From the NCBI GenBank assembly GCA_022414725.1, contig CM039463.1, positions 56,477,761 through 56,541,760 on the forward strand: a stretch of DNA of 64,000 nt, in the 5' to 3' direction. Shown here piece by piece: positions 1,432 to 64,000 of this stretch (position 1 is its first letter; each line of letters begins with the position of its first letter). The notes below the pieces were generated by a model. The model saw nothing but the letters and a program-made list of their open reading frames with translations. It had not been told where the DNA came from and searched no databases. The position numbers and the translations under genes were made by a program. Origin of the DNA: Microglena sp. YARC (Eukaryota; Chlorophyta; Chlorophyceae; Chlamydomonadales; Chlamydomonadaceae).

Positions 1432-3150
1432 GAGGTACGCTCTGTCCTTTTCTCTTGCACTGCGAAATTTTCAAATGTCTGCAGCCCGAGCCTGTCTGAG
1501 GGTGTCTGGCATGTTGATTCTGGAGCTGGGATGTCAATCACAGGTGATATGTCTTTGTTCACTGTGTTTCATGCTTCTGAGACTGGGCCAGCAGTTAAAT
1601 TTGGTGATGGTGTGGTTCAACGGTCTGTGGGTCAGGGTTCTATTGTGTTATGTAGTGATTGGTTACCAACACCAATCACTTTAACCAATGTTCTCTACAT
1701 CCCACACTGTCCGGTGAACCTCATGTCAGTAAATGCTGTTGCCCATGCTCACAACTGCAAGATTTCTTTTGATAGTCTTAGTTGTACTGCCACACAGGGC
1801 TCTTCTGTTCTGTGGTCTTTCCCTGCCTCCAGTGATGGTGTGTACAAGTTTGCATGTAGGCCTTGTCACACCCCTCGTGGCCGTTTGTATGGTGCTGAAG
1901 ATTATCCAGCTTTTGCTCTTGATGTTGATGAGGATGGTGGAGTTGTGATCCCTACCACTCCTGAATGGTTGTGGCATAGGCGGCTGGGTCACCCTGGCTA
2001 TGATGCCATGCACAACCTTGTAAGGAAGGGTTTGGTTCAGAACTTACCCCTCACTCTCCAACAGGTGCAAAGACTGTCTAAGATCCCATGTGATGCTTGT
2101 CAGAAGGCAAAGGGAAAACGTATCCCTTTTCCTAAAGAAAGCAAAACTAGGATCCGTGCCCCATTACAACGCCTTCACTTGGACATCATGGGGCCATTTA
2201 ATATTAGGGGCTTGCGTGGGGAGTTTTATGTTCTGTGTCTCACTGACCAATACTCTGGCTATGCTGAGGTCTTGTGCTTGAGAACCAGGGATGAAGCTCC
2301 CTTAGCAGTTCAAACTACCATCCTCAGATGGATGACTCAGCTGCATGGATTTGTTTTCAAGTGTCTTAGGTCTGACAGGGCTAAGGAATTTCTAGTGAAG
2401 TGGTTCGAGGATTGGTTAGAATCGGTTGGTGCTGTGCATGAATTGTCCATGGCTTACACTGCTCAGCAGAATGCGACTGTGGAACGGTACAATGGGGTCC
2501 TTCAGAACGTAGCTAGGAGCATTCACTTGGAGTCTAAGCTCACTAAGTCCTTCTGGCCCTATGCCTTCCTCGCCGCGTGTTACCTACGCAACCGGCTGCC
2601 TAATCAGGGTGACAAGACTCCTTATGAGTTATTCTTTGGGGTTCTACCTGATGTATCGTTATTGCGCGTGTTCGGGTGCCCATGCTATGTTACCTTGGTG
2701 AATGGGAAGAAGCGCAATAAGCTTGACGAAAGGGCGTTATCTGGTAGACTGGTTGGGTATTCTCTGGTGAGTAAGGGTTATTTTGTTTGGGTTCCTAAGT
2801 TGCGCCAGGTGGTAGAGAGTCGTGATGTGCTCTTCTATGAACAGTTTAGCTATAACTGTATCCCTGGGCTTTTTCCCTATGATGGATCTCAGTATTTTTC
2901 TCGCACCCCTGCCGCTATCATCGGTAAAGGGCTTGATACTACTGACAATGTCCTGGGCCCTTTACCAACCCCGATTGTTGACCGCTTTACTGGTCATGGG
3001 ATGACGATGCGTCCCAGGCCAGGTAATGATGGTGCTGTATCGCGTGCGGCGGCATTGGGCCAGGGGGAGTCTGATGTTCCTTCAAGCTCTAATTTATTCG
3101 AATCTCAGGGGGTCGCCGGGCCTTCCTCTGCGCCACGTTTCGTCGGTTAA
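1432..3150 (+). CDS. pol: Copia Pol, protease and integrase part, ended by a nonsense codon
   Basis: This reading frame continues directly from gag after the UAG at 1429-1431. The aspartic protease motif DSGA occurs about 28 codons in (WHVDSGAGMS), followed by the gag-pre-integrase zinc-binding H..H..C..C region (WHRRLGH ... CDACQKAK). The integrase core shows its acidic triad in LHLDIMGP, LRSDRAKEF and QQNATVERYNG. The first ATG (1531) lies after the protease motif, so expression by readthrough from gag is more likely than by internal initiation. The ORF stops at TAA 3148-3150; copy 2 has GAA there and stays open, so the stop is a lesion of this copy. Confidence 0.9.
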   Translation, partial: EVRSVLFSCTAKFSNVCSPSLSEGVWHVDSGAGMSITGDMSLFTVFHASETGPAVKFGDGVVQRSVGQGSIVLCSDWLPTPITLTNVLYIPHCPVNLMSVNAVAHAHNCKISFDSLSCTATQGSSVLWSFPASSDGVYKFACRPCHTPRGRLYGAEDYPAFALDVDEDGGVVIPTTPEWLWHRRLGHPGYDAMHNLVRKGLVQNLPLTLQQVQRLSKIPCDACQKAKGKRIPFPKESKTRIRAPLQRLHLDIMGPFNIRGLRGEFYVLCLTDQYSGYAEVLCLRTRDEAPLAVQTTILRWMTQLHGFVFKCLRSDRAKEFLVKWFEDWLESVGAVHELSMAYTAQQNATVERYNGVLQNVARSIHLESKLTKSFWPYAFLAACYLRNRLPNQGDKTPYELFFGVLPDVSLLRVFGCPCYVTLVNGKKRNKLDERALSGRLVGYSLVSKGYFVWVPKLRQVVESRDVLFYEQFSYNCIPGLFPYDGSQYFSRTPAAIIGKGLDTTDNVLGPLPTPIVDRFTGHGMTMRPRPGNDGAVSRAAALGQGESDVPSSSNLFESQGVAGPSSAPRFVG

Positions 3151-20884: not shown

Positions 20885-21104
20885 CTTAGTTAACTTAATT
20901 AACTCAGGTAACTTGATTAACTGAAGGTGGAACTTTGGAAAAACACTGGAGGTACCGAGTCTACCGTTGACAGATTAGCAACTAATAACTATTGTTTTAA
21001 TAAAAACGAGTGTAAACAACTTTGATCCATACAGGTCTCGGCATTGTTTTGCTGAGTATGTAACGTTCCCCCCGTTCCCCCAGATGGATGTAACGTTCCG
21101 TTTT

Positions 21105-22171
21105 CAGAGGTGTTCATGTGAACACGTTTAAAATAGGGATTGATGTGAGCCTCCGGCATTCTTCAGTATTTATTTTTTGTTGAAATAATTGTTGTTCCCT
21201 AGAAGGAGAGTCTTTTCAGAGGTGTTCATGTGAACACGTTTAAAATAGGGATTGATGTGAGCATCCGGCATTCTTCAGTATTTATTTTTTGTTGAAATAA
21301 TTGTTGTTCCAGAGATGGAGAGTCTTTTCAGAGGTGTTCATGTGAACACGTTTAAAATAGGGATTGATGTGAGCATCCGGCATTCTTCAGTATTTATTTT
21401 TTGTTGAAATAATTGTTGTTTCAGAGATGGAGAGTCTTTTCAGAGGTGTTCATGTGAACACGTTTAAAATAGGGATTGATGTGAGCATCCGGCATTCTTC
21501 AGTTTTATTTTTTGTTGAAATAATTGTTGTTCCCTAGATGGAGAGTCTTTTCAGAGGTGTTCATGTGAACACGTTTAAAATAGGGATTGATGTGAGCATC
21601 CGGCATTCTTCAGTATTTATTTTTTGTTGAAATAATTGTTGTTCCCTAGATGGAGAGTCTTTTCAGAGGTGTTCATGTGAACACGTTTAAAATAGGGATT
21701 GATGTGAGCATCCGGCATTCTTCAGTATTTATTTTTTGTTGAAATAATTGTTGCTCCAGAGATGGAGAGTCTTTTCAGAGGTGTTCATGTGAACACGTTT
21801 AAAATAGGGATTGATGTGAGCCTCCGGCATTCTTCAGTATTTATTTTTTGTTGAAATAATTGTTGTTCCAGAGATGGAGAGTCTTTTCAGAGGTGTTCAT
21901 GTGAACACGTTTAAAATAGGGATTGATGTGAGCATCCGGCATTCTTCAGTATTTATTTTTTGTTGAAATAATTGTTGTTCCAGAGATGGAGAGTCTTTTC
22001 AGAGGTGTTCATGTGAACACGTTTAAAATAGGGATTGATGTGAGCCTCCGGCATTCTTCAGTATTTATTTTTTGTTGAAATAATTGTTGTTCCGTAGATG
22101 GAGAGTCTTTTCAGAGGTGTTCATGTGAACACGTTTAAAATAGGGATTGATGTGAGCCTCCGGCATTCTTC
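21105..22171 (+). repeat. Tandem array of a 112-bp unit, about 9.6 copies
   Basis: Units begin CAGAGGTGTTCATGTGAAC at 21105, 21217, 21329, 21441, 21552, 21664, 21776, 21888, 22000 and 22112. The period is 112 bp with one unit of 111. Each unit contains the inverted repeat GTGTTCA-TG-TGAACAC, then TTTAAAATAGGGATTGATG, then an AT-rich tail. A second, shorter array of the same unit is at 32675-32984. Units differ at only a few positions. There are no unique spacers, so it is not CRISPR. The ORF starting at 22098 is not a gene. Confidence 0.95.
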
Positions 22172-22355
22172 ATACAATTTTTCGGTCAATCAAATGATTC
22201 CATGGAGACCCGATGTGTTTGGCCGAGCATTGCCCAGCCCTAGCGATCGATGCCTGCACCGCGAGCGAGCTAGGGGGGAGGTTGCCGTGACCCCCTTGTG
22301 GAAGAACACATGTATGACAACTACAATGTAACAAACATAAGGGGGTTCTCTCCTC

Positions 22356-27412: not shown

Positions 27413-27842
27413 TACAGTCGGCGGAACAGTAAAATGAAACATCAAAAAAACGGTATAAGGCGGTGACAATCATATATTGTATGAGTGGATGGTCCTATAA
27501 AATGACCCGTCCAGCAAAGAAACCTCCTTACATGACGCATTGCACATCAACAAAGACCCCGTGTTCTTTTGGGCCACGGTACTGGGGAAGAGGCGATCGC
27601 TTAAGTGCGGCTGGTCCTTCAATGGACACTCTCGAAAGTACCGACAAAAGAACGATACGGAGTCTGCAGGATGGAGAGCCGTGATCTAAAAAAGAACCAC
27701 AATATTCTCGTTAACATCCTGCAATTTGTTGATTCAAAATCGTATTGGTGTTCCACTGCCCCGTGGGTTGGTACACCATTAGGTTACACCGTAAGGTGTG
27801 CCGTACACGAGGCGGTTTCATTTTAGTATTCCGTCGACTGTA
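27413..27842 (+). mobile_element. Short TA-ended inverted-repeat element (MITE-like), 430 bp
   Basis: The left end TACAGTCGGCGGAACAGTAA and the right end ...GTATTCCGTCGACTGTA are imperfect 28-bp inverted repeats, and both boundaries carry TA. The right interior shares a block with 40450-40530 and 51276-51375, including the small hairpin ACACC-TTAC-GGTGT. No transposase is inside. Similar CATCATCATTWACAGTAACACT sequence flanks both sides. It is a likely non-autonomous element. Confidence 0.6.
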
Positions 27843-31756: not shown

Positions 31757-32143
31757 TTAATAAGTGTAACACTTTTTTTTAAATGCAGTTGTTCTCAAAT
31801 AATTTTGGGACACCATGTATAATTTGAATGATATCCTTTCGAGCAAAGAACGCAACGTCTGGCGGGCTATCTTGACAGCCCGCGTACGCTCGATGATGTC
31901 TGACTCATGGACAACACGTCCCATCGCTGCGGAAGCAATCAAATGCAGCACCGCTGTGAATGCACCGCTGTGAATGCACCGATGTGAATGCACCGCTGTG
32001 AATGCACCGCTGTGAATGCACCGCTGTGAATGCACCGCTGTGAATGCACCGCTGTTGAAATTGAAACCACAAGCCATCGCACGCATGAGGCGGTCGATAC
32101 ATGCCGACTTATCCTCCGACAGGTTCACGCTGATCTTGTTCAT
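31757..32143 (-). CDS. Hypothetical protein with 16-bp tandem insert, 3' end in an inverted-repeat terminus
   Basis: The minus-strand ORF (start near MNKISVNLSED) overlaps the 3' end of the phosphatase gene by a few dozen bases. About six copies of a TGTGAATGCACCGCTG unit (31955-32054) code GAFTAVHSQRCIH in its middle. The last residues (MVSQNYLRTTAF) are the translation of the TACAGTTG-type terminal sequence at 31784, so the original C-terminus has been replaced. The flanking parts (DKSACIDRLMRAMACGF, IIERTRAVKIARQTLRSLLE) look like one small helical protein. Family not recognised. Confidence 0.3.
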   Translation of the reverse strand: MNKISVNLSEDKSACIDRLMRAMACGFNFNSGAFTAVHSQRCIHSGAFTAVHSHRCIHSGAFTAVLHLIASAAMGRVVHESDIIERTRAVKIARQTLRSLLERISFKLYMVSQNYLRTTAFKKKCYTY

Positions 32144-38517: not shown

Positions 38518-38930
38518 TCGATCATGTCGGCAGTCGTGCGGATTGCGGGGATCACGATGACTTGCGCATACTCATTTTCACACGGAGGCTTAAAGCAGAC
38601 TCCTGCTCGATTGGTTTCTGAAGGGGGAGCGCGGGCACCGCGGAGCGGGGCAGAGGATTGGATTGGATTGGATTCATTTGATGACTCGCGTACACTGTAA
38701 CGCTTGGGCTTCTCACTGTAACGCTTGGGCTTCTCACTGTAACACTTGGGCTTCTCACTGGAACACTTGGGCGGTGAAGCGAAGTGACCCTCATCGTCCC
38801 CGTAGCAAGCAGACTACACTTAACTTATATCAAACGGTGGAACGATGTCGATACTCTTGGGGGATCGATCACTCAAACCCCGGAAACACACGGTAAAGTA
38901 GGCGAAAACGGTGATCACATGTTGCAACTC
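38518..38930 (+). repeat. Composite dispersed repeat (shared with 11230-11650)
   Basis: It has the same parts in the same order as at 11.2-11.65 kb: hairpin GCACCGC-GGA-GCGGGGC, GGATT run, four CACTGTAACRCTTGGGCTTCT units (two there), GGAACGATGTCSATACTCTTG and GGTGATCACATG. Noncoding. Confidence 0.7.
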
Positions 38931-38991
38931 CTCAAAAAATATTTGTAGTGAACCACGGACCTGTATCTGGTTTCAGGGGATATCATTCAAA

Positions 38992-39756
38992 TTATACTGA
39001 GTGTCCCAAAATTATTTGATCAACTGTATGATTTCCAGAAACTGCATAAATCTCCACAAGGCGAGCAGTAATGCCGCACGCAGCGTTGAACGCAGGGATT
39101 AGGAGGTCGTGCACCACAGGACCGCTGAGTGGCTTGCTATTGAGGCTGTCCTTGGACTCAGGTATACCTGTGTCAAGTGCTGCATGGTTACTGTCGAGGA
39201 CAAGCTGGAAGTCGAGTAGAGTGTGTAGTCTGCCTCGCGAGAACTCTGTTGGTATCGGTTGGTAAGGAAAGTAGTGTTTCCAAAAATTTATGACAGTCCA
39301 TAAGCTTGCCTGCACACTCTGCTCTTCAAAGTAAAACGAACGCAATCCGTTGACCCCTTCCTGTATGTTGCGAAGCGTTGCATCCTGGAACATGGTTCCC
39401 TGAAAGGACACAGATCTCTTGGGAGCTGCAGGACCCCCTTTGTCTCTGGATTGCTGTATCTCTGCGATCACGCAGCCGTCCAAAATGCCGCCCAGGAACA
39501 TGGATGCCATAGTGAGCTCTCGTGCTACGGTGTCTTGAAAAATTGTCCAATCCATGTCATGATGATCTTCCAGTGCATTCTTGACATAGAGTAGGCTCGG
39601 GCGAATGGACGCTAAGCCACTGCACAGGGCTCGCACATGCATGACCTTGCCCGGTAGGTTGAGTGCTACCTCTGAATCCCCGTCCTGGAAAGGTGGAGCA
39701 TACGTGCACCGGCAGTGACTGTAACAAGGACATGAGGAGCAGTTACCAGTAAACAT
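38992..39756 (-). CDS. Hypothetical protein, 254 aa, Cys-rich N-terminus
   Basis: It starts at the ATG at 39756 with a Cys-rich N-terminus (CSSCPCYSHCRC), followed by a mostly helical body (WTIFQDTVARELTMASMFL, ASLWTVINFWKHYFPYQPIP). The last residues (TVDQIILGHSV) are coded inside the inverted terminal sequence ending at 39028, so the gene's 3' end was overwritten by that element. Family not recognised. Confidence 0.5.
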   Translation of the reverse strand: MFTGNCSSCPCYSHCRCTYAPPFQDGDSEVALNLPGKVMHVRALCSGLASIRPSLLYVKNALEDHHDMDWTIFQDTVARELTMASMFLGGILDGCVIAEIQQSRDKGGPAAPKRSVSFQGTMFQDATLRNIQEGVNGLRSFYFEEQSVQASLWTVINFWKHYFPYQPIPTEFSRGRLHTLLDFQLVLDSNHAALDTGIPESKDSLNSKPLSGPVVHDLLIPAFNAACGITARLVEIYAVSGNHTVDQIILGHSV

Positions 39757-40449: not shown

Positions 40450-42623
40450 TACAGTCGACGGAATACTAAAATGAAACCGCCTCGTGTACGGCACACCTTA
40501 CGGTGTAACCTAATGGTGTAGCAACCCACGTGACAGTAGGTCTATGCCACCCCCCCTCCCCCCCTCTCCCTCTACCTGCCCCTCTGCCCCCGGAGCCCCG
40601 TCCCGCACTGCCCTTCCCCTTGACTGGAGCCTTGTCAGACTTTAAGTCCATCGTCATGCCTCTCTTGCTCAGCTTGGCACTTAGCAGCTGGGCTTTGGCT
40701 GCCGCTACCATCTCGTCGCCATCATCTGCGTCCTCGTCTTCATCTGCAACGCCTGCACTAAGCTTCTCGAACCCGGACTCGTCCTCATCGTCATCCGCTC
40801 CGTCTTCTGCTCCGGCAGCGCCCTTCTTACCCTTTTTGCCCTTCAGAGGTGCGGAGAGCATTGCACCGCACTTCGCCTGCAGGCCTTGCCGGTTGAAGCT
40901 CCTGGTAAAGGCGCTCTTAATCTTTGTAGGGACATCCTTCATGGGGTCCTCTCCCCAATCGGCCTTGGTCTTGAACTTGGTCACGTCAATCACGTAGTCA
41001 AACATTTCCCGGGAGACGCAGTAGTCCTGCATCAGGGTAACCTTCTGCTGGATGCCACCACTCTCTCCATCAGTCACTAGTGGACGCGTCAGTAGGGTGC
41101 GCATGGCTGATAGGTACTCTAACCGCACGGGAGATCTGCTAGAAGCCATGTGGCCGCTGGAAGACATGGTGGTGGTGAGTTCTCCCAGCAAGCGTTTTTG
41201 CTTGTTTGAGGTTGAGAAGTTGCCCAGCCATGAGGTGAAGCGAGAGTAGTTGTCACCTGGCCAGAAGGCGTCCCTCCCGCCGCGCATGTACGCCCCCGGC
41301 ACAAGGCATGCAAGCGTGTTGAAGGCAGGCATAAGGCTCCAGTTCATGTAGCGCCGCACAGACGTGTTGATCACATCTCCTGCAGATATGGCCTCAGCTG
41401 ACTTCGCCACTGCCCTCATCCGCTGCTCCTCAGTTCCTGCGATGACTGGGCGGTGGTTAAGGTAGTTCTCCTGGATCAACAGGGGGACGATGTCGTCCAC
41501 CATAGCTAGGTTCAGCCGATCTTGAATGCTCATGCTTGAGCTGGCAGGCTCTAGCAACTTTCTTGCACACTCGAAAGGAGACAGGTCACTGTCCTTGTCG
41601 CATGCCTGGCTGCCCTTAACGTCATCGTAGGACATGGTGGTGCGACTAAGACGGACCATTTGCAGCTGTCCTAGGATAGAGCGTAGGTCGCAATTGGCTC
41701 CCTTGGCCAGGGCCTCCATGGTGGCATCATTGACAGTCAGCCCCTCCTTGCGGCATATCTCCATCATCCTTATCTTGACTTGCTGTGGGGTGGGTGACCT
41801 GAAGTCAAGCTCCACACAGTAGTTCCGCAAGCTTTTCAACTTCTGGTTCCACTTGTCGTTACAGATGCAGATAATGGGCACCTTTGAGGACTTGATCGTC
41901 TGGATCAGGTCTTGCACACCACCACGGTCACCACCAGACATCCCATCATCCTCATCCATGATCAGCAGCTGCTTCTTCATCTTCCCATCAGCTCCCACCA
42001 ACAGAGATTGATTGGTTGCCATCTCCTTGATCATGTTGGCCGACTTCCCTCCCATGCCAGCTGAGGTCTTTGAATCCGACTTGTTACGGGTGTCACTGGC
42101 ATTCATCTCCACAATCTCAAAATTACACTCCTTGGCCAAGATATGGGCGGCAGAGGTTTTGCCGATTCCCGGAGGACTACTGAGCAGCACCGCCTTCTTG
42201 GACAGGTCCTTAGGATTCTTCCGGCTGCCAGGAGGGGCCTGTGGTTGCTGGCCACGCAGATTTACACCCTCCCAGTTGCTGAGCCACATCCTGAGGGTGG
42301 CAATCAGCGTGTTGTTGCCCACCAGCTCTCTAGTGTTTGTTGGCTTGTACTTGTCCACCCAAAGTTGGTAGCCGGCATTACCTGAAGGAGCCTGGACACC
42401 AAATACTACTTTGTCATGATCGTTCAGGGAATTCCATTGCTCGGCAGTCATGCTTGACAGTTCGTACCTCAGTTGCTTCTCAAGTGCTTCTGCGCGCTCA
42501 GTCTCAATCTTCATTTATGCCTTATTTCGAGCGCGCTCAGTCCCCTCCAACGTTGCCCAAAAGCAACGATCTGCAGTCTGGATGAGTATAAGGTGTGTCC
42601 CACTTTATTTGAGAACTACTGTA
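40450..42623 (-). mobile_element. TACAGT/ACTGTA-bounded segment carrying an RFC1-like gene
   Basis: The left boundary TACAGTCGACGGAATACT matches the terminus of the 27.4-kb element and of 51276. The right boundary ...GAGAACTACTGTA matches the termini at 51013 and 56335. The two ends point inwards as in a TA-targeting transposon, though they are of two sequence types. Almost the whole interior is one gene, and there is no transposase. This reads as capture of a host gene between transposon ends (inference). Confidence 0.5.
40466..42514 (-). CDS. RFC1: Replication factor C large subunit (RFC1-like), without BRCT domain, both ends fused to repeats
   Basis: The large subunit of the clamp loader that places PCNA on DNA. 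LWVDKYKPTNTRELVGN opens the AAA+ domain. Walker A is SSPPGIGKTSAAH, Walker B LLIMDEDDGM, then RGGVQDLIQTIKSSKVPIIC and the RFC1 C-terminal helical region, ending in an acidic and Lys/Gly-Arg-rich tail. The BRCT N-terminus of cellular RFC1 is missing. Instead the first 33 residues (MKIETERAEALEKQLRYELS...) copy the end of the coiled-coil gene at 6472-7041. The last 20 or so (PLGYTVRCAVHEAVSF) are transposon-end sequence. No introns are visible and GC is higher than in the flanks, as expected for a retrocopy or horizontally captured host gene. The frame is intact. Confidence 0.85.
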   Translation of the reverse strand: MKIETERAEALEKQLRYELSSMTAEQWNSLNDHDKVVFGVQAPSGNAGYQLWVDKYKPTNTRELVGNNTLIATLRMWLSNWEGVNLRGQQPQAPPGSRKNPKDLSKKAVLLSSPPGIGKTSAAHILAKECNFEIVEMNASDTRNKSDSKTSAGMGGKSANMIKEMATNQSLLVGADGKMKKQLLIMDEDDGMSGGDRGGVQDLIQTIKSSKVPIICICNDKWNQKLKSLRNYCVELDFRSPTPQQVKIRMMEICRKEGLTVNDATMEALAKGANCDLRSILGQLQMVRLSRTTMSYDDVKGSQACDKDSDLSPFECARKLLEPASSSMSIQDRLNLAMVDDIVPLLIQENYLNHRPVIAGTEEQRMRAVAKSAEAISAGDVINTSVRRYMNWSLMPAFNTLACLVPGAYMRGGRDAFWPGDNYSRFTSWLGNFSTSNKQKRLLGELTTTMSSSGHMASSRSPVRLEYLSAMRTLLTRPLVTDGESGGIQQKVTLMQDYCVSREMFDYVIDVTKFKTKADWGEDPMKDVPTKIKSAFTRSFNRQGLQAKCGAMLSAPLKGKKGKKGAAGAEDGADDDEDESGFEKLSAGVADEDEDADDGDEMVAAAKAQLLSAKLSKRGMTMDLKSDKAPVKGKGSAGRGSGGRGAGRGRGGEGGWHRPTVTWVATPLGYTVRCAVHEAVSF

Positions 42624-43182: not shown

Positions 43183-43254
43183 AGTGTATGAGGAATTTGC
43201 ATGTACTAAATATCAGAATGCCATGTATGGCAACCAACGCTTCTGTAAAATTCT

Positions 43255-43350
43255 TCAACCTGCTGCACCCCCCCCAACGTTGCCAAAACGCAAAGATCTG
43301 CAGTCTGGATGATTATAAGGTGTGTCCTACTTTATTTGAGAACAACTGTA
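43255..43350 (+). repeat. Terminal sequence of the ...AACAACTGTA type, right-facing
   Basis: About 95 bp matching 56240-56335: CTGCTGCACCCCCC, AACGTTGCC, GATCTGCAGTCTGGATGATT, then TTTATTTGAGAACAACTGTA. No opposite end facing it was found nearer than 42623. Confidence 0.7.
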
Positions 43351-49994: not shown

Positions 49995-50982
49995 TTATGC
50001 GGTTGCCACCCGTTGTTTGTACCAGTTCCCTGCTTTCCTGTACAACGCCTTACGAACGTCGTTCACATTGAATCCGTTTTCTTCGATCGTGTCTCGTTCC
50101 TCCTTGAACACGTCTCGGCACACCCATGACGAAAACTCAGAGACGCTATGTATCCGCAACTCCACGCCCTGTTCAACCAGGCACTCGATGCCTTGGCTCA
50201 ACCGAGACTCGGTCGTGACGGACTCGACGAACTCGGTCACAGTCTTGATGTACTCTGTCTGCGACGGCACCGCTTGCTTCGTGACGGCGGTGCAATGCGT
50301 CTTGCCTTCGTCTTGAACCACAGACGAGACGATGGGTGGTCCACGCACGTCCACACGATGCCCTCGCACCACCCTTGACGCCGGCCAGCTGGTACGCGAA
50401 CGGACACTCTGCATCTACGGAGTTCGTGAGATCCGCCATGTAGTCTTGCGCGGGCTGCGTGTCGCTCATGTCGACTTCCACCTCGTACGTCGGAAAGTTC
50501 ATGATGTTGAAGATCCATTCCTCCTGACAGAACATTGTGCTGTACTTGGTCATGTCAACCCATTCATAGTCGATTCTGATCGCAAATATCACAAACATCT
50601 TGGCGAGCTTACACAGGGCCACCTTGCTCTGCACACCTTGACCGCAGTACTCGCCACATACGACGATGTTCGATCTTATATCTGCTCCATGGATCGCTTG
50701 GATACGATCGAACAGATCGGAGTACTTCTTCGCAGTCAGAAACATGTGGCAGCCTTGGTTGTCGTTGTCGACTGACAGGATTCTGTTTCGAGACTGAATG
50801 GTGTCGACGAAGTCAGGGGTTCCAGTAATGAAGTGCCTCACAATGTCCGAGTGCGTCCCGGGCAGTTTGACCGTGCCTCGGAACTTGAGCGTCTGCGGGA
50901 TCGCGCTTCCGAAGACGTACGGCAACTCTTTCAGGACGTTCCTGAACTGCTGGATCGGGGGAAATGGAATGAAGGCCGGCAT
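49995..50982 (-). pseudogene. Rnl2-like RNA ligase, two frameshifts
   Basis: ATP-dependent RNA ligases join RNA ends via a lysyl-AMP intermediate. Motif I KLPG is in FRGTVKLPGTHSDIV, motif III in NIVVCGEYCGQGVQ, IIIa in FVIFAIRIDYEW, motif IV in CEGIVWTC and motif V in WFKTKG. The start MPAFIPFPPIQQF (ATG 50982) is chosen because sequence upstream is the translated end of the 51013 element. Two single-base deletions break the frame: near 50371, before CEGIVW, and near 50313 where GGG is read as GG. The C-terminal part (49995-50310) is then in a third ORF. With both bases restored the gene would be complete, so it may be a recent pseudogene or a sequencing artefact. Confidence 0.65.
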
Positions 50983-51012
50983 TCGACTAACATACAGGTG
51001 TCGGTGGAGCCT

Positions 51013-51098
51013 TACGGTAGTTCTCAAATAAAGTGGGACACACCTTATAATCATCCAGACTGCAGATCGTTGCTTTTGGGCAACGTTGGGGGGGTGAA
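51013..51098 (+). repeat. Left terminal inverted repeat of the Fanzor element
   Basis: It pairs with 56250-56335. It contains GGGACACACCTTATAATCAT and GATCGTTGC-TTTTGGGCAACG, the latter a small hairpin (CGTTGC..GCAACG). Confidence 0.8.
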
Positions 51099-51275
51099 GA
51101 GGTAACCGTCACATCTGTCACATCTGGCGCACCATGTGAATCTTTTGACAACTAGGGCATTGCCTTCGGGGCTTATAGTGTGTGGTATCGGCCAGGTTCT
51201 GCAGTTGGGGTTCTCTACCAACCATTGCGCGATTCGTTGGCGCCACTCTGTAATCGCTTCATTTTGCGTGTCTCC

Positions 51276-51375
51276 TACACTCGACGGAATACTAAAATGA
51301 AACCGCTTTCTGGAGTGTACCGTACACCTTATGGTGTAACCTCATGGTGTAGCAACCCACATTGCAGTGGAACAC
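51276..51375 (+). repeat. Second type of terminal sequence, next to the Fanzor 3' end
   Basis: TACACTCGACGGAATACTAA begins a block also present at 40450 and, inverted, at 27842. Inside is a conserved hairpin ACACC-TTAT-GGTGT (TTAC in the other copies) followed by CATGGTGTAGCAACCCA. It ends about 25 bp from the last Fanzor codon. In TnpB and Fanzor systems the guide RNA is commonly made from this position, so this is a candidate region for it (inference). Confidence 0.5.
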
Positions 51376-51397
51376 CATCATGTTTTTTTGTAGCCCA

Positions 51398-53740
51398 TCA
51401 ACAACACGCATCCCTGCAAAATGGAAGCAGTCTCCCTTGACCCAACAGTTCCATGCAGTGCAGCCTTGCGATTGTGAGAGCAGAGGAGCGGTCCCGGTCC
51501 GAGTAAGTGCTGGTTTCTGGAGAGAATCGCAGTCCTCGTACCTCAGGGTACCGCTTGATCGAGTTGTTGTCGGCAAGAGAGGGGGCTAAGCCACCCCTCC
51601 TGTGTTTTTCTTGGATTTTTTTACGTGTGCAGTACACCCTCACCGCCAACTGGTCGCGATAAGAGACCTTTGGAGTCTCCTTCAATGGGGTGTGACCCAA
51701 CAACTCGTAACCTAGACGAATCTGATCTTCCGTGGTTATTTGGACACTTGGAATCTTGTAAACACATTCCTTCTTGGCACCCGGTTTCCCAAGGACATGA
51801 GAGTCGTCTTGAATTCATCTGTCACATGAACCTCCTCTGTTGAAGAGGCGCTTGCAGGAAGCGAACATAGATCCCGTAGGCACAGCTACCTCTCCTGGTC
51901 CGGTAGCCTTCAGCTTCGTGATTGCAGAACCATATGCTACGCGAACCCTCAGGTCAGGATGATCCAACTTCATGTTGCGCTTGATCCCTGCCCAAAATGA
52001 GTCCATAGCCTTGCGCTTGCCAATGTACCTCTGAAAGTTGTCTCGGGATTCTCTGCGACGGAGTGCCATCCTCCACCACTCGTCGGAAAACGTAGCGTAA
52101 TTTTTCAAGTAAGCCGAGATATCATCCTTCCTGGATGTACTCAACGCTGCTCCATTTTCACGCAGAGACTCCCATCTAGGAATCATGTTTTCTTGCTGTT
52201 TTTTCTGTTTCTTGATACCAGACTTGTGGTCAAAAGCTCCGCTTGTAAGCTTCCATGTCTTGCTTTTGTCGTCTGCCAGATACGTGACTGTAGCGATGTT
52301 GCTCCTACCAGGATCCACACCCAGAACGACGATACCCATATCGGGCAATGTCGTTTTGAGTTTTTGGTCATACTGTTCTGAGACGCTCATACCTTCCTCG
52401 TCACGAGACCTCTTACTTTTATTCTTCAGATCGGATACACGAACCTGTACTGTCTTGCTGTACTGCATGCTCAATGAGACTCCGTCAGTACAGATGCTAC
52501 AATCGAACACCCACCCCGTCTTGACAGGTGGTTTCTTGAAGAAGGAACCTGCGACTGTTTTTCGGGCGTTCACGAGCGTGTCATACCTACCCTTTGCATG
52601 TCTGTACTCGTCAGTAGCCTTGATATCCTTAACGTCAGCATCGTACTTCTGTTGGGCCAACTTGTATGCATCCCATTCACCAGGACCACATGATTTTTTC
52701 TTCTTAACTGAAGGCTTCAGAGGCAACATGAAGCGGTCGGGATCCTTTACATTTTCCCACTTTGAAAGCTCGACGATGTTTGGGTCTTTGGGGGAAACAC
52801 GTACCTGAACAGGTTCACGAGGGTCTCATGTCAAGGCGGACATGCGCCCGTTGGACATTAAAGATGGGCATCAACCGGATACGACGTGCACCAATAGCCT
52901 CCAACCGTGTCTGCATCCAATAATTGAACCAGACCATGGTCGGGAAGTCCATGTCTTTGCCATAGTCATCATAAAGTTGACTTCCATCTGGAACTTTCAG
53001 CCTGACTCGAACTTCACGGACGTACACCTGAACAGACTCTGGCCAAGATTCCATCTCCTGTATTTCTTGTTGGATGACCCTCATCACGTCGTACACACGG
53101 ATGGTCTTCGGAGCTCCCAGTGCATTCAAAGTAGCCTTAGTGAGGCGGGTCAGACGAGGTACCAAAGGAACCCATGCGTTGTTCGACACGACAGTGCTCA
53201 ATGTGTGACCGGCATAGTTCAAAACCTGGTCGAAATAGATAGGGTAGGAGTTGATGTAGTCAGGGTCATCGCTACCAAGCACCTTTCCGATTACGTCTTT
53301 CACGGCTTCGTATGATATTCTACTCTCTTCATCTGGAAAGACGCCGTCAACTCCGATCCTTAGCCAATCCTTCCAGTAGGTATCCTTCATATCGTACATA
53401 TTAGGAATCGGCAGGTCGCCCTCCATGAGCCTCGTGACATGGAAAGTCAGCACCAGACTGGAACGCCGTAACATGCGGCTCACCACATTGACGAGCTGAT
53501 CCACATGCCCCCTGAACTTACCGAATTCTTCATCGTCAAGACTGATTGCCTTCTTCAGGGCGCATTTCACGACGCACATCTTTTCCACCGTCTTGTACTC
53601 TGGAGGGGGTCTGGCGATGAGACCATGGTCTTCGCATAAACGGACAATATCGTCCTTCTTGTCCTTTGAGGAGTATGCTACTTCGGCCAATTTTAGTAGC
53701 TCCTTCAATTTCGCGACTGTCGACCGGCACACCGAGCGTG
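51398..53740 (-). pseudogene. Fanzor (eukaryotic TnpB-like RNA-guided nuclease), frameshifted
   Basis: Minus-strand ORFs 53897-52815, 52729-51815 and 51703-51398 form one Fanzor. The N-terminal part has a SAP-like start (LKELLKLAEVAYSSKDKKDD) and the Fanzor landmark RLMPIFNVQRAHVRLDM. The middle has RuvC-I GVDPGRSNIATVTY, with the catalytic Asp, then FQRYIGKRKAMDSFW and VRVAYGSAITKLKATGPGE. The end has VTDEFKTT, VRGLRFSPE and the RuvC-III-like SDRDRSSALTIA. The CxxC zinc finger after EFKTT is not seen. Three breaks occur, near 52815, 51830 and 51748; the last is one A short in an A run. The N-terminus stops at about 53740, where the divergent gene begins. Likely inactive unless the breaks are errors. 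Confidence 0.75.
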
Positions 53741-53745
53741 AAACG

Positions 53746-55170
53746 ATGCGTTCCGCCAACCTGTACAAGGGTGCAGCTGCCCCTGTGGGCGTGCACCGGA
53801 TGGAGGACCGAGGAGGGTCCCAACGGGACCTCATCTTTCGAACCCCCCTGGGTGAGATGTCGCGAGGGCCTGCCACGACGACGGTCAAGAGCGTCACTGA
53901 CTACGGTCGAAGCGGTATGTCGGCCCCTGGCAACGCGCGAATGGAGACCGGGTCTCGCACGCGCCCTGGAACTCTCACTACGGCCGTCAAGGCGTTGGTC
54001 GCACCTTTGCAGGATGTGCTGCGCACGACGCGTAAGGAGGAGTACCTCGATTCGGCGCCTGTGGTGGACCTTGTAGGATCTCACGGCGTTTCCAAGCTCA
54101 CGGTGTACAACTCGCAGGATGTTGCGCGAACGACGCTCAAGGATGTTCTCCTCGATTCGGCTCCTGTGGTGAACCTTGTAGGATCTCACGGCGTTCCCAA
54201 GCTCACGGTGTACGACTCGCAGGATGTCACGCGAACGACGCTCAAGGATGTTCTACTCGATTCGGCGCCTGTATTGAACCTTGTAGGATCTCACGGCGTT
54301 CCCAAGCTCACGGTGTACGACTCGCAGGATGTCACGCGAACGACGCGCAAGGAGGTGGGTATCCACGACAGACATCATACTGGCAACTTTGCGGGCGGCT
54401 CTGTGTCACGCCGAGGTCCTGTGGTGGATCCTGATTCTGGAGCGCGTCACACGCTTCGCGAGGCGACCGCTGTCAACCCTGACGGTCATCAACGTAATTT
54501 GTATGCGAAGAACGTTGGTGGCGTTGTTTACTCGGCTGATGACGCGGCGCCCGATGCGACTCGTAAGGACGTTGCGGTGGGTCAGGATCGTGGTGGTGGC
54601 TTGCCAACGATGACATCTGGACGCGGAGCTTACAGTGTTTCAGTGTTGGAACCTCCTCGAGCGACTATGCGTGAGACGGCCGCTGATTCGGGAACACGGT
54701 TCGGTGTGTCTCGGCTTGCAGAGAGTTCTGGTGCGTACGTTGTGGCCAAGCCCGACAGTTTAGAGGCGATGATGCGCAGCACGACGACTGACGGGTCTGA
54801 GTACTATGGTACTTCTGAGTCTGGTGTGACCGGACCGGTTTCGCGTGCCGACGTCGGTTCGGTGGAGCCCGCGCTGTCTCGTGAGGCGCTTGTGATGACT
54901 GGGCGCGAATTTCTGGTTGACAGGAGGGGGTGTGACGCTCCGGCTGGGGCGCGGTTCGGTGCCGGCGTAGCTGAGATGGGTGTTGTTGGAGACGAACGTG
55001 GCGGGGACCCTGCTTTGCGTGACGGTGGGTGGCAGAGTAGGTACTTGAATTCTAGTGTCGCTGGGGGAGGTGACATGTTGTTGCCTTACAACACTGTCGA
55101 GCCTGATCCTGAGCCGCGGTACACGGTGGACCGTTTGATGGGTGACATAGAGGGCAGACGTGCACAATAA
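53746..55170 (+). CDS. Virion-like protein with repeated TTRKE/TLKD motifs
   Basis: I start at ATG 53746 (MRSANLYKGAAAPVGVHR), since upstream the frame overlaps Fanzor coding DNA. The 474-residue protein is built of spaced motifs of the form T-[TLM]-[RK]-[KED] (RTTRKEEYLD, RTTLKDVLLD, HTLREATA, DATRKDVAV, ATMRETAAD). Three tandem copies of a unit of about 39 residues (LNLVGSHGVPKLTVYDSQDV) lie at about 54040-54350. This pattern resembles a family of NCLDV structural proteins (DUF5899-type, recalled from memory). A capsid or internal virion role is inference. GC-rich and intact, it sits as cargo between Fanzor pieces. Confidence 0.55.
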   Translation: MRSANLYKGAAAPVGVHRMEDRGGSQRDLIFRTPLGEMSRGPATTTVKSVTDYGRSGMSAPGNARMETGSRTRPGTLTTAVKALVAPLQDVLRTTRKEEYLDSAPVVDLVGSHGVSKLTVYNSQDVARTTLKDVLLDSAPVVNLVGSHGVPKLTVYDSQDVTRTTLKDVLLDSAPVLNLVGSHGVPKLTVYDSQDVTRTTRKEVGIHDRHHTGNFAGGSVSRRGPVVDPDSGARHTLREATAVNPDGHQRNLYAKNVGGVVYSADDAAPDATRKDVAVGQDRGGGLPTMTSGRGAYSVSVLEPPRATMRETAADSGTRFGVSRLAESSGAYVVAKPDSLEAMMRSTTTDGSEYYGTSESGVTGPVSRADVGSVEPALSREALVMTGREFLVDRRGCDAPAGARFGAGVAEMGVVGDERGGDPALRDGGWQSRYLNSSVAGGGDMLLPYNTVEPDPEPRYTVDRLMGDIEGRRAQ

Positions 55171-55191
55171 GACCACCAACAATAAAAAATA

Positions 55192-55590
55192 TCATCTGCA
55201 TGAAGTTTGTATTGTGTTTGCTGTTGTTGTAGCAGTTAATGGGCGGTTCGTAGACTTCTGGTACTTGCGGATCTCGCGCAGGGCGACGGTGCCGGGGCGG
55301 TACCTGTGAGGTTTCTTCACGTCCCGTTCAGCACTGATTGTCATCTTCGCCGTCTCCAATTGAGGTACCAACAACACATCGTAGCAAGCGGCCAAGGAAT
55401 TTGTTGTCTGGTCCCTAAACTCTTTCTTGAGGTAAAAAATTCTCTTCCGAATGCGAATCATCTGCTTCTTTATCTTCATCCTCTCTTTTGATCGTAAGGT
55501 TTTCTCAGTATCCAACCTTGACTGCAGATTGTCATGAACCAGCAGGAATTTGACAAGGTCGGATGCCTGTCCCTATCAATTAAAACAGTG
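55192..55590 (-). pseudogene. Fanzor RuvC-II fragment fused to a histone H3 core fragment
   Basis: Reading the minus strand, [40 protein letters not shown] and [14 protein letters not shown] correspond to the Fanzor segment that contains the RuvC-II Glu (here in PQLETAKM). Nine codons later, in the same frame, the sequence becomes histone H3: [20 protein letters not shown] then QKST (55249-55320), 24 residues without a mismatch to plant/algal H3. After that it is unrelated ([12 protein letters not shown]). The H3 DNA is GC-rich, unlike the Fanzor part. This Fanzor is a different one from the 51.4-53.7 kb gene and its next segment is on the opposite strand at 55713. Confidence 0.7.
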
Positions 55591-55712
55591 TATCGTTTCA
55601 TAAAACTCATTGGTTTTACAAGAAAAAAGAGCAAACTCCGTGGACAGTGTAAAGGGGACTTAGTTCCACTTGTCACTGAATTTTGTACATTTTTTTTGAC
55701 TTCGTAGCTCCG

Positions 55713-56151
55713 ATGGAGAAGAGCACGAAGGTACTCGTCGGTTTTGGTGATTGGAAAGGTCTGGGGGCGACACCAATCTCTAGGCGGACTTGTGGCTATT
55801 CGTTTCGAGCTTCGTAGCCGCGAAAACGTTATCATGGAGGACGTCGATGAGTTCAGAACATCTCAACGATGCAGCTGCTGTGAGACCCGACTTTGCAACA
55901 TGGTTGCACTCACTCATCGTAAGAAGCAAGACGGTACTTGGGAATGTACGGAAGGACGCAAGCGGATTCACAAGATTCTCCACTTCAAAAGCAGTCAAAG
56001 AGGAGCGACACGCAAACAGAGCGGCGGTAGGCTCCACTGCGGGAAGACTTGGGACCGCGACGTGAATGCTTCCAGGAACATCCTGATGCTTACACTCCAC
56101 CAAGTCTTTGGGAGAGAGAGACCTCTCGCGTTTCGCCGAGAGGTTCCTTGA
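55713..56151 (+). pseudogene. Second Fanzor, C-terminal fragment with zinc finger and RuvC-III
   Basis: The plus strand codes MEKSTKVLVGFGDWKG, then shifts by one base near 55780 to the frame with VDEFRTSQRCSCCETRL, the Fanzor/TnpB zinc-finger region (CSCC, later LHCGK), and WDRDVNASRNIL with the RuvC-III Asp. The usual C-terminus follows (FGRERPLAFRREVP). The RuvC-II part of the same gene is inverted at 55330-55590, so the gene was split by an inversion. Not functional as it stands. Confidence 0.75.
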
Positions 56152-56249
56152 AAAATCCACCAACACCTGATACTGATATGGGGACACAGACGGTTGAACG
56201 GTTCACCACAGAGGCGACTCGGAATATCTTCGAGAATATCTTCAACCTG

Positions 56250-56335
56250 CTGCACCCCCCAACGTTGCCCAAACGCAACGATCTGCAGTCTGGATGATTA
56301 TAAGGTGTGTCCCACTTTATTTGAGAACAACTGTA
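56250..56335 (-). repeat. Right terminal inverted repeat of the Fanzor element
   Basis: It pairs with 51013-51098 and ends ...GAGAACAACTGTA. The same type of end is at 42560-42623 and 43255-43350. Confidence 0.8.
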
Positions 56336-56344
56336 TGTATTACC

Positions 56345-56551
56345 ATGGAAGAGCACAGTAGTGACTTAAAAACAGTAGGTGAGAGGATCGAACATATAAT
56401 ACACGAGATGGATTCTTTGCATGAAGCGACAGGCGTGGAGTATTTCAAAGCCCAGGCATTAGCATGGTCCGGATGGGTGTGGATGCTACAAGATAGAAAG
56501 CGACGAGAGTGGAAGATTACATCCCCTGGGGATGCTCAGGGAATGGATTGA
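56345..56551 (+). CDS. Small hypothetical protein, 68 aa
   Basis: It starts at the ATG just outside the Fanzor element (MEEHSSDLKTVGERIEHIIH). It is amphipathic-helical with a Trp-rich middle (ALAWSGWVWMLQD). The longer frame begins inside the element end and is not natural. Unrecognised. Confidence 0.4.
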   Translation: MEEHSSDLKTVGERIEHIIHEMDSLHEATGVEYFKAQALAWSGWVWMLQDRKRREWKITSPGDAQGMD

Positions 56552-62541: not shown

Positions 62542-62573
62542 GTTCAGATGGGTGTTGCTTATGAATTTGGACT

Positions 62574-64000
62574 GCATGTATTCTGAGTACATGTTTTCTG
62601 TATCATTCTCTTGTTGGATTTGTCAATGCTCCCGATTATGATCGGGAGGACTGTGCGTATTCCGAGTACATGTTTTTTGAATCATTCGCTCGTTTGGTTT
62701 GTCAATGCTCCCGATTATGATCGGGAGGACTGTGTGTATTCCGAGTTCATGTTTTCTGTATCATTCGCGCGTTGGGTTTGTCAATGCTCCCGATTATGAT
62801 CGGGAGGACTGTGTGTATGCCGAGTACATGTTTTCTGTATCATTCGCTCGTTGGGTTTGTCAATGCTCCCGATTATGATCGGGAGGACTGTGTGTATGCC
62901 GAGTACATGTTTTCTGTATCATTCGCTCGTTTGGTTTGTCAATGCTCCCGATTATGATCGGGAGGACTGTGTGTATTCCGAGTACATGTTTTCAGTATCA
63001 TTCGCACGTTGGGTTTGTCAATGCTCCCGACTACGATCGGGAGGACTGTGTTTATGCCGAGTACATGTTTTCTGTATCATTCTCTTCTTGGGTTTGTCAA
63101 TGCTCCCGACTACGATCGGGAGGACTGTGCGTATTCCGAGTACATGTTTTTTGAATCATTCGCTCGTTTGGTTTGTCAATGCTCCCGATTATGATCGGGA
63201 GGACTGTGTGTATTCCGAGTTCATGTTTTCTGTATCATTCGCGCGTTGGGTTTGTCAATGCTCCCGACTACGATCGGGAGGACTGTGTGTATGCCGAGTA
63301 CATGTTTTCTGTATCATTCTCTCGTTGGGTTTGTCAATGCTCCCGTCTACGATCGGGAGGACTGTGTGTATTCCGAGTACATGTTTTCTGTATCATTCGC
63401 GCGTTGGGTTTGTCAATGCTCCCGATTATGATCGGGAGGACTGTGTGTATGCCGAGTACATGTTTTCTGTATCATTCTCTCGTTGGGTTTGTCAATGCTC
63501 CCGATTATGATCGGGAGGACTGTGTGTCTGCCGAGTACATGTTTTCTGTATCATTCGCTCGTTGGGTTTGTCAATGCTCCCGATTATGATCGGGAGGACT
63601 GTGTGTATGCCGAGTACATGTTTTCAGTATCATTCGCTCGTTGGGTTTGTCAATGCTCCCGACTACGATCGAGAGGACTGTGTGTCTGCCGAGTACATGT
63701 TTTCTGTATCATTCTTTCGTTGGGTTTGTCAATGCTCCCGACTACGATCGGGAGGACTGTGTGTATGCCGAGTACATGTTTTCTGTATCATTCGCGCGTT
63801 GGGTTTGTCAATGCTCCCGATTATGATCGGGAGGACTGTGTGTATGCCGAGTACATGTTTTCTGTATCATTCTCTCGTTGGGTTTGTCAATGCTCCCGAT
63901 TATGATCGGGAGGACTGTGTGTATGCCGAGTACATGTTTTCTGTATCATTCTCTCGTTGGGTTTGTCAATGCTCCCGATTATGATCGGGAGGACTGTGTG
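62574..64000 (+). repeat. Tandem array of a 79-bp hairpin unit, 18 copies, continuing past the window
   Basis: The hairpin CTCCCGAT-TATG-ATCGGGAG starts at 62629 and again every 79 bp up to 63972, exactly 17 periods without an insertion or deletion. Between hairpins is GACTGTGTGTATGCCGAGTA then CATGTTTTCTGTATCATTCG and YTCGTTGGGTTTGTCAATG. Variants are TTATGA or CTACGA in the loop region and Y/G changes elsewhere. Because 79 is 3n+1, all three forward frames are read in turn, giving ORFs of 60-219 codons that are not genes. Confidence 0.97.

Follow-up and report, generated by a model that had tools for sequence, protein, structure and literature searches.

Repeat A and the inverted arms

The window analysed here is a stretch of 64,000 nucleotides from the green alga Microglena sp. 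YARC (assembly GCA_022414725.1, contig CM039463.1, positions 56,477,761 to 56,541,760), and the interval in question is 51013–56335. Between two inverted arms it holds the remains of a Fanzor gene (Fanzor1), the 3′ part of a gene called virion-like and part of a second, different Fanzor gene, with an RNA-ligase-like open reading frame (ORF) beyond the left arm and a further ORF beyond the right (Table 1). The arms, 51013–51093 and 56255–56335, are 81 nt long, 96% complementary and 5161 nt apart, and the outer edge of both is TA. An initial annotation had seen in them the bounds of one mobile element that carries Fanzor genes and a virion-like gene. The inverted repeats and their TA edges stand, while their role as the bounds of one element does not. 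Nor are they a private pair: two more copies of the repeat, here called A, lie in the window and share one orientation. With at most three mismatches allowed, a 30-nt core of A is matched four times in the window, whereas 100 shuffles gave 0.00 matches on average. All four window copies finish in TGTA or CGTA at the 3′ side and vary at the 5′ side.

Genome searches covered the 568-Mb assembly (2,390 contigs, with chromosome-sized pieces such as C1 of 195 Mb), and in each search the best 40 first-look candidates were scored. Loci fetched for comparison with the window carry "L" numbers (e.g., L021). The search with A gave 1,757 first-look candidates; from the 39 other places that were scored, 20 were taken with 10 kb of sequence, almost all of it on the inner side. 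An inverted full copy of A was found in none of these 20 loci (L010 has a 37-bp opposed piece), and additional same-orientation copies of at least 60 bp were found in 12. The inverted pairs of ends that the initial annotation proposed to look for elsewhere in the genome are missing from these 20 loci.

Element M, a transposase-bearing carrier of the second Fanzor

The full form of the element to which A belongs, here called M, is found in L021 (2387–5485). It is 3,099 bp long and has A at its right end, and its left end matches the right over a 40-column alignment, giving terminal inverted repeats (TIRs) of about 40 bp. It encodes a Fanzor and a DDE_3 transposase (PF13358, E 3.9e-25), so that a Tc1/mariner transposase with these ends, as envisaged by the initial annotation, does exist in the genome. 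No match to the transposase was found in the six frames of window 51300–56251. The transposase, the TIRs and the single-TA empty sites described below mark M as a Tc1/mariner element.

Because the M copy in L021 has both ends and the transposase, A can be read as the right end of M plus subterminal sequence. Both window arms map to M 3021–3099 and are thus both right ends. The true partner of A is the M left end, which resembles A over only about 40 bp; one such end lies in the window (Table 1) and a second, partial one is found at 31786. To judge from this sequence comparison, the arms are the right ends of two different M copies and not the bounds of one element.

A search with M 1–547 gave 1,422 candidates. 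Among the best 40, two matched over the whole length (L021 and L027 themselves) and 38 matched 152–547. The piece 1–153 lies about 200–285 bp away in 34 of these 38, and this displacement indicates that a longer form of M is common. Where both ends of longer copies were fetched, A sits at the expected right end in 17 of 20, with 15 distinct flanks. A single M copy in L088 and L108 has about 23 bp of flank on both sides, far beyond a TA duplication.

The C-terminal part of the second Fanzor in the window, on the plus strand, contains a TNB domain (PF07282, E 3.9e-10). Compared with SpuFz1 the protein gives E 0.34, which is too weak to set type 1 or 2. The initial annotation was right to distinguish two Fanzor genes. 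Its "split" second gene has turned out to be a 3′ fragment, and the pieces upstream are a reversed stretch of the element that carries Fanzor1 (55574–55684) and a histone H3 fragment (55246–55353).

The RNA-ligase site

At the RNA-ligase site, seven of the 20 10-kb loci that were fetched have the M left end, at 636–3,817 bp from A. All seven share the left flank AGGTAATGCA followed by TA; six share the right flank, TA followed by AGGCTCCACC, and L009 has a different one. From 40 scored copies of the RNA-ligase flank, 20 further ones were picked where A was not already listed. A is present in 14 of them (L029 and L037 have its first part only) and absent in six. Two of the 20, L043 and L046, read AGGTAATGCA TA AGGC and are clean empty sites of M with a single TA, as anticipated in the initial annotation. 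L030, L040, L042 and L048 lack A yet keep the sequence found just inside A in L032.

Copies across L030–L048 differ in whether they have a unit of about 33 bp, GTCAAAAAGTAGCATG..CTGCTGTA, at the TA beside A.

Element F1 and Fanzor1

The Fanzor1 gene, on the minus strand, is spread over two or more frames and contains an internal stop. It matches the Guillardia theta Fanzor1 (9cer) with E 9.6e-4, and seven relatives were found for it. The element that carries it, here called F1, is complete in L025 (4537–8022, turned) with both of its ends, C and C′, which form TIRs, and L024 is a clean empty site of F1 with a single TA. In the window F1 starts at 51276, and the flank GTGTCTCC followed by TA runs on without F1 in four other loci (Table 1).

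The sequence of L012 follows that of the window, with 97% identity, as far as 53722. Past that point it runs on into the remainder of F1 and reaches an M left end, 3,817 bp in total, which places F1 as nested in M copy 1 there. The flank past the F1 far end in L012 is unlike the L013-type site, so something must have been rearranged there after insertion too. The window copy has neither the F1 far end nor the M left end.

Two side observations concern other combinations of these ends. A short element at window 27413–27842 has ends C′ and C and seemingly, as read by eye, a piece of the 5′ part of the second Fanzor. C and A as the possible ends of a further element type were seen in L010 and L022.

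The junction and the right half of the interval

A search with 211 bp around 53722 gave 447 candidates. Among the best 40, one (the window itself) spans the junction between Fanzor1 and the virion-like gene, 35 match the virion side only and 4 match the Fanzor side only. The virion-like gene, described as intact in the initial annotation, is cut short here, with more than a third missing compared with its relative P0001. A protein search with the ORF returned 24 relatives from EukProt and other sources, and the name "virion-like" finds no support in Pfam, NCBIfam, PDB or IMG/VR.

The ORF of the right flank lies 1.8–3.3 kb downstream of the virion-like gene on the same strand in at least 20 of the 35 places (2.6 kb in the window); its own matches were the best 40, and the remaining 15 places may have it too. 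The recurrence of this gene order implies that the right half of the interval keeps an order seen elsewhere and that the left half comes from another place. Of 26 close copies of the right-flank ORF that were listed, 20 were fetched; all 20 have A, and 13 also have the 3′ region of the second Fanzor. Diverged copies (83–86%) have A in 0 of 12 fetched (of 13 listed).

Order of events and alternative readings

We are confident that the interval represents broken Tc1/mariner-type transposons that lie as a nest in virus-like DNA and were joined by a single rearrangement. That rearrangement, seen at one of the 40 scored places, is a one-off and not a vehicle. M copy 1 would have entered a TA site upstream of the RNA-ligase-like ORF, and F1 with Fanzor1 would then have inserted inside it. 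A rearrangement would have truncated both at 53722 and attached what remained to the virion-like gene, of which the 3′ part is present. M copy 2 lacks its left portion and lies after this gene and ahead of the next ORF, a place that an M right end occupies in other copies too. The order of these events is inferred, and the transposase presumably moved the elements by cut and paste. Each of the separate elements carries a gene for a likely RNA-guided DNA cutter, a Fanzor.

The vehicle proposed in the initial annotation would be a single element of 5.3 kb, TA-ended and non-autonomous, which has Fanzor and a virion gene as cargo and transports viral structural genes. The inverted arms and their TA edges speak for it, as does the fact that the arms are true transposon ends, and the M transposase might in principle act on two inverted right ends at once and mobilise the pair. 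An element of this kind is nevertheless highly improbable, given that both arms are right ends instead of one left and one right, that the junction was spanned by a single one of the scored candidates and that no fetched locus has an inverted full A. The same three observations ruled out the arms as TIRs of one unit. In addition, the virion-like gene is truncated and stands in a place that it also holds elsewhere.

A different view of A takes it for a viral gene leader or promoter cassette and not a transposon end. Many copies of A sit 1–100 bp upstream of an ORF start and point the same way, with several different ORFs concerned, and on these ORF positions a role as a promoter cassette only was favoured at first. 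Once the empty sites and the transposase had come to light it was given up, and it now has very little credence: A is the right end of a transposase-bearing element with a matching left end, its element leaves single-TA empty sites, and it stands where expected in 17 of 20 long M copies. A may have a secondary promoter role besides being an end of M. It is also unlikely, if less starkly so, that A is an independent miniature element of about 98 bp, flanked by TA, that also ends M. L032 has A between two TAs, L030, L040 and L042 have one TA, and there are solo copies of A with several 5′ ends. At the same site, however, seven loci have the M left end and L043 and L046 are empty for the whole of M, so that loss of A from M accounts for L030, L040 and L042 too.

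Several points weigh against the nest of broken mariner-type transposons as set out above. Further copies of A also have several different 5′ ends, more than deletion within the element suggests at first sight, and A may also have been lost or gained alone as a 98-bp piece from TA to TA. The TNB matches of the second Fanzor in L021 are below the Pfam cut-off (E 8.8e-4 and 0.0037), which the same part in the window passes, and the F1 transposase is only a transposase-like stretch read by eye in the L025 translation. With only the best 40 of the 447 junction candidates scored, a second composite copy is possible.

One-sided flank motifs

Both elements show a base preference next to the TA on one side. 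At the C′ end of F1, on the 5′ side of Fanzor1, C precedes TA in 13 of 14 distinct flanks, against 2 of 17 at the C end (Fisher 7e-6, background 0.176); this set comprises the distinct outer flanks of the window and of all loci fetched by then. At the M left end, A precedes TA in 17 of 17 distinct flanks (20 copies, L081–L120), and the base before that is C, A or T, never G. The 15 distinct right flanks of M are mixed, and four of them have the mirror base T (Fisher 1e-5). A separate set of 12 M right-end flanks has A in 6, a milder bias on the right side. Flanks were merged only by likeness over 10 bases. Since the copies with the best scores were used, the sample is not random.

The motif bases belong to the target, since they are present in the readable empty sites. 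TA is palindromic and a transposase has little reason to be one-sided about it, whereas a target-adjacent motif (TAM) read by Fanzor does give such a reason. The motifs on the 5′ side of the Fanzor genes, HATA for M and CTA for F1, thus look TAM-like, and they suggest that Fanzor activity selects which insertions persist. Fanzor would act through an RNA from the right end, with the flank beyond A as guide, and the TAM-like motifs fit such a role. The predicted fold of the right-end RNA has a z of −1.42, with 14 of 200 shuffles as good, which is not significant alone.

A wider proposal, tentative and rather doubtful at present, is that two Fanzor families shape where their mariner carriers persist, each through its own TAM (HATA for M and CTA for F1). 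With a right-end RNA that takes its guide from the flank past that end, Fanzor would cut empty sites in the many virus-like copies and have the transposon copied in, so that homing by an RNA-guided nuclease would be joined to a cut-and-paste DDE transposase. Solo right ends would then be ghost guides that have no Fanzor.

Surroundings of the interval

The flank 50853–51012 gave 131 first-look candidates, with the best 40 scored at 98% or more, and the flank 56336–56480 gave 103, with many of the best 40 at 97–99%. By first-look counts, about 100 nearly identical copies of the virus-like region appear to exist in this one nuclear genome. The surrounding genes may be of giant-virus origin, to judge by the kind of gene set. 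IMG/VR held no relatives of the virion-like protein (searched singly and as a profile), Fanzor1, the RNA ligase, D5 or P0019, and a 20-mer of repeat A searched alongside gave none. Rfam returned one match on 50900–56500, with E 0.37, far below the gathering score.

The window also encodes a D5_N ORF and an RFC1 ORF. It holds two 5.8-kb repeats that are 98.8% identical and have copia-type ORFs (by eye), and long tandem arrays at 62569–64000 and 21101–22172 with units of about 79 and about 112 bp. Within the interval, the minus-strand ORF 55192–55515 fuses the histone H3 fragment in frame to a basic stretch that looks TnpB-like by eye.

Table 1. Features of the interval and related M ends, in window coordinates
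Feature	Position	Strand	Remarks
M left end	38927–39028	−	M positions 1–104, 96%; reads leftwards
Further right end of M (A)	42542–42623	+	
Further right end of M (A)	43249–43350	+	
RNA-ligase-like ORF	50173–50982	−	M copy 1 inserted next to it; PF09414 E 3.9e-5, below Pfam cut-off
Left arm (A), assigned as right end of M copy 1	51013–51094	−	Points left at the RNA-ligase-like ORF
Inner part of M copy 1	51095–51275		Sequence continues past TA without F1 in L013, L014, L016, L017
F1 element, mariner-type with Fanzor1, truncated	51276–53722	−	C end (51276–51377) kept; C′ end and first codons lost
Fanzor1 coding remains	51413–53720	−	More than one frame, internal stop
Rearrangement junction, Fanzor1/virion-like gene	53718–53722		Unique to the window among the best 40 of 447 candidates
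3′ part of virion-like gene	53719–55182	+	Residues 291–744 of P0001 (744 aa), 89% identity
Histone H3 fragment	55246–55353	−	36 residues, inside ORF 55192–55515
Reversed F1 piece	55574–55684	−	111 bp, 96%
M copy 2	55697–56335	+	M positions 2435–3099: C-terminal part of second Fanzor (55744–56151) and right end
Right arm (A), assigned as right end of M copy 2	56255–56335	+	9 bp before the ATG (56345) of the next ORF

Relation to known Fanzor elements

Known Fanzor carriers offer two main points of comparison, a 2013 study of Fanzor1 in Mariner elements that is reportedly by Bao and Jurka and a 2023 study of a Spizellomyces Fanzor whose first author is said to be Saito. The 2013 study describes Fanzor1 in the Mariner elements PGv-1, PUl-1, PUl-4 and HMa-1, and also in viral DNA (PMC3627910). 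Like M and F1, these have Mariner-type ends, a TA duplication and a Fanzor inside; some have a transposase, and some lie in viral DNA, which in certain cases is part of a host contig (PMC3627910). The present case differs from what is described there in having two families in one genome, nested in the window and at high copy, with one-sided motifs (PMC3627910).

For Spu-1 of Spizellomyces punctatus and its SpuFz1, the 2023 study reports CA before the 5′ inverted repeat, the TAM CATA, an omegaRNA at the right end and gene-less ghost loci (PMC10432273). The M and F1 motifs resemble this CA and CATA, and Spu-1 has 30-nt inverted repeats and ghost loci that keep the ends (PMC10432273). The Spu-1 ends are reported to enclose no transposase, whereas M carries DDE_3, and the motifs differ, HATA for M and CTA for F1 against CATA for Spu-1 (PMC10432273). 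By analogy, M and F1 may behave like the SpuFz1 system.

The Fanzor1 transposon of the Spodoptera ascovirus SfAV, described in 2023, is alike in that a TIR transposon residing in a virus carries a Fanzor (PMC10711439). It is unlike M in being non-autonomous, in having two copies and in belonging to another transposon family (PMC10711439). Teratorn, the piggyBac–herpesvirus fusion, is a transposon fused to viral genes, the kind of element proposed by the initial annotation (PMC10175614). In contrast to Teratorn, the window yielded no unit that recurs, and it lacks both a properly paired set of ends and an intact viral gene (PMC10175614). As far as a limited literature search could see, three things are new: a Fanzor element that bears a transposase and reaches high copy number, the nesting of a second Fanzor element inside it, and two distinct TAM-like motifs.

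The tempting claim of a transposon vehicle for viral structural genes falls, and a testable reading takes its place. The motifs bear on the question of why eukaryotic DDE transposons keep an RNA-guided nuclease, and they provide two TAMs, predicted from sequence alone, that are open to bench test.

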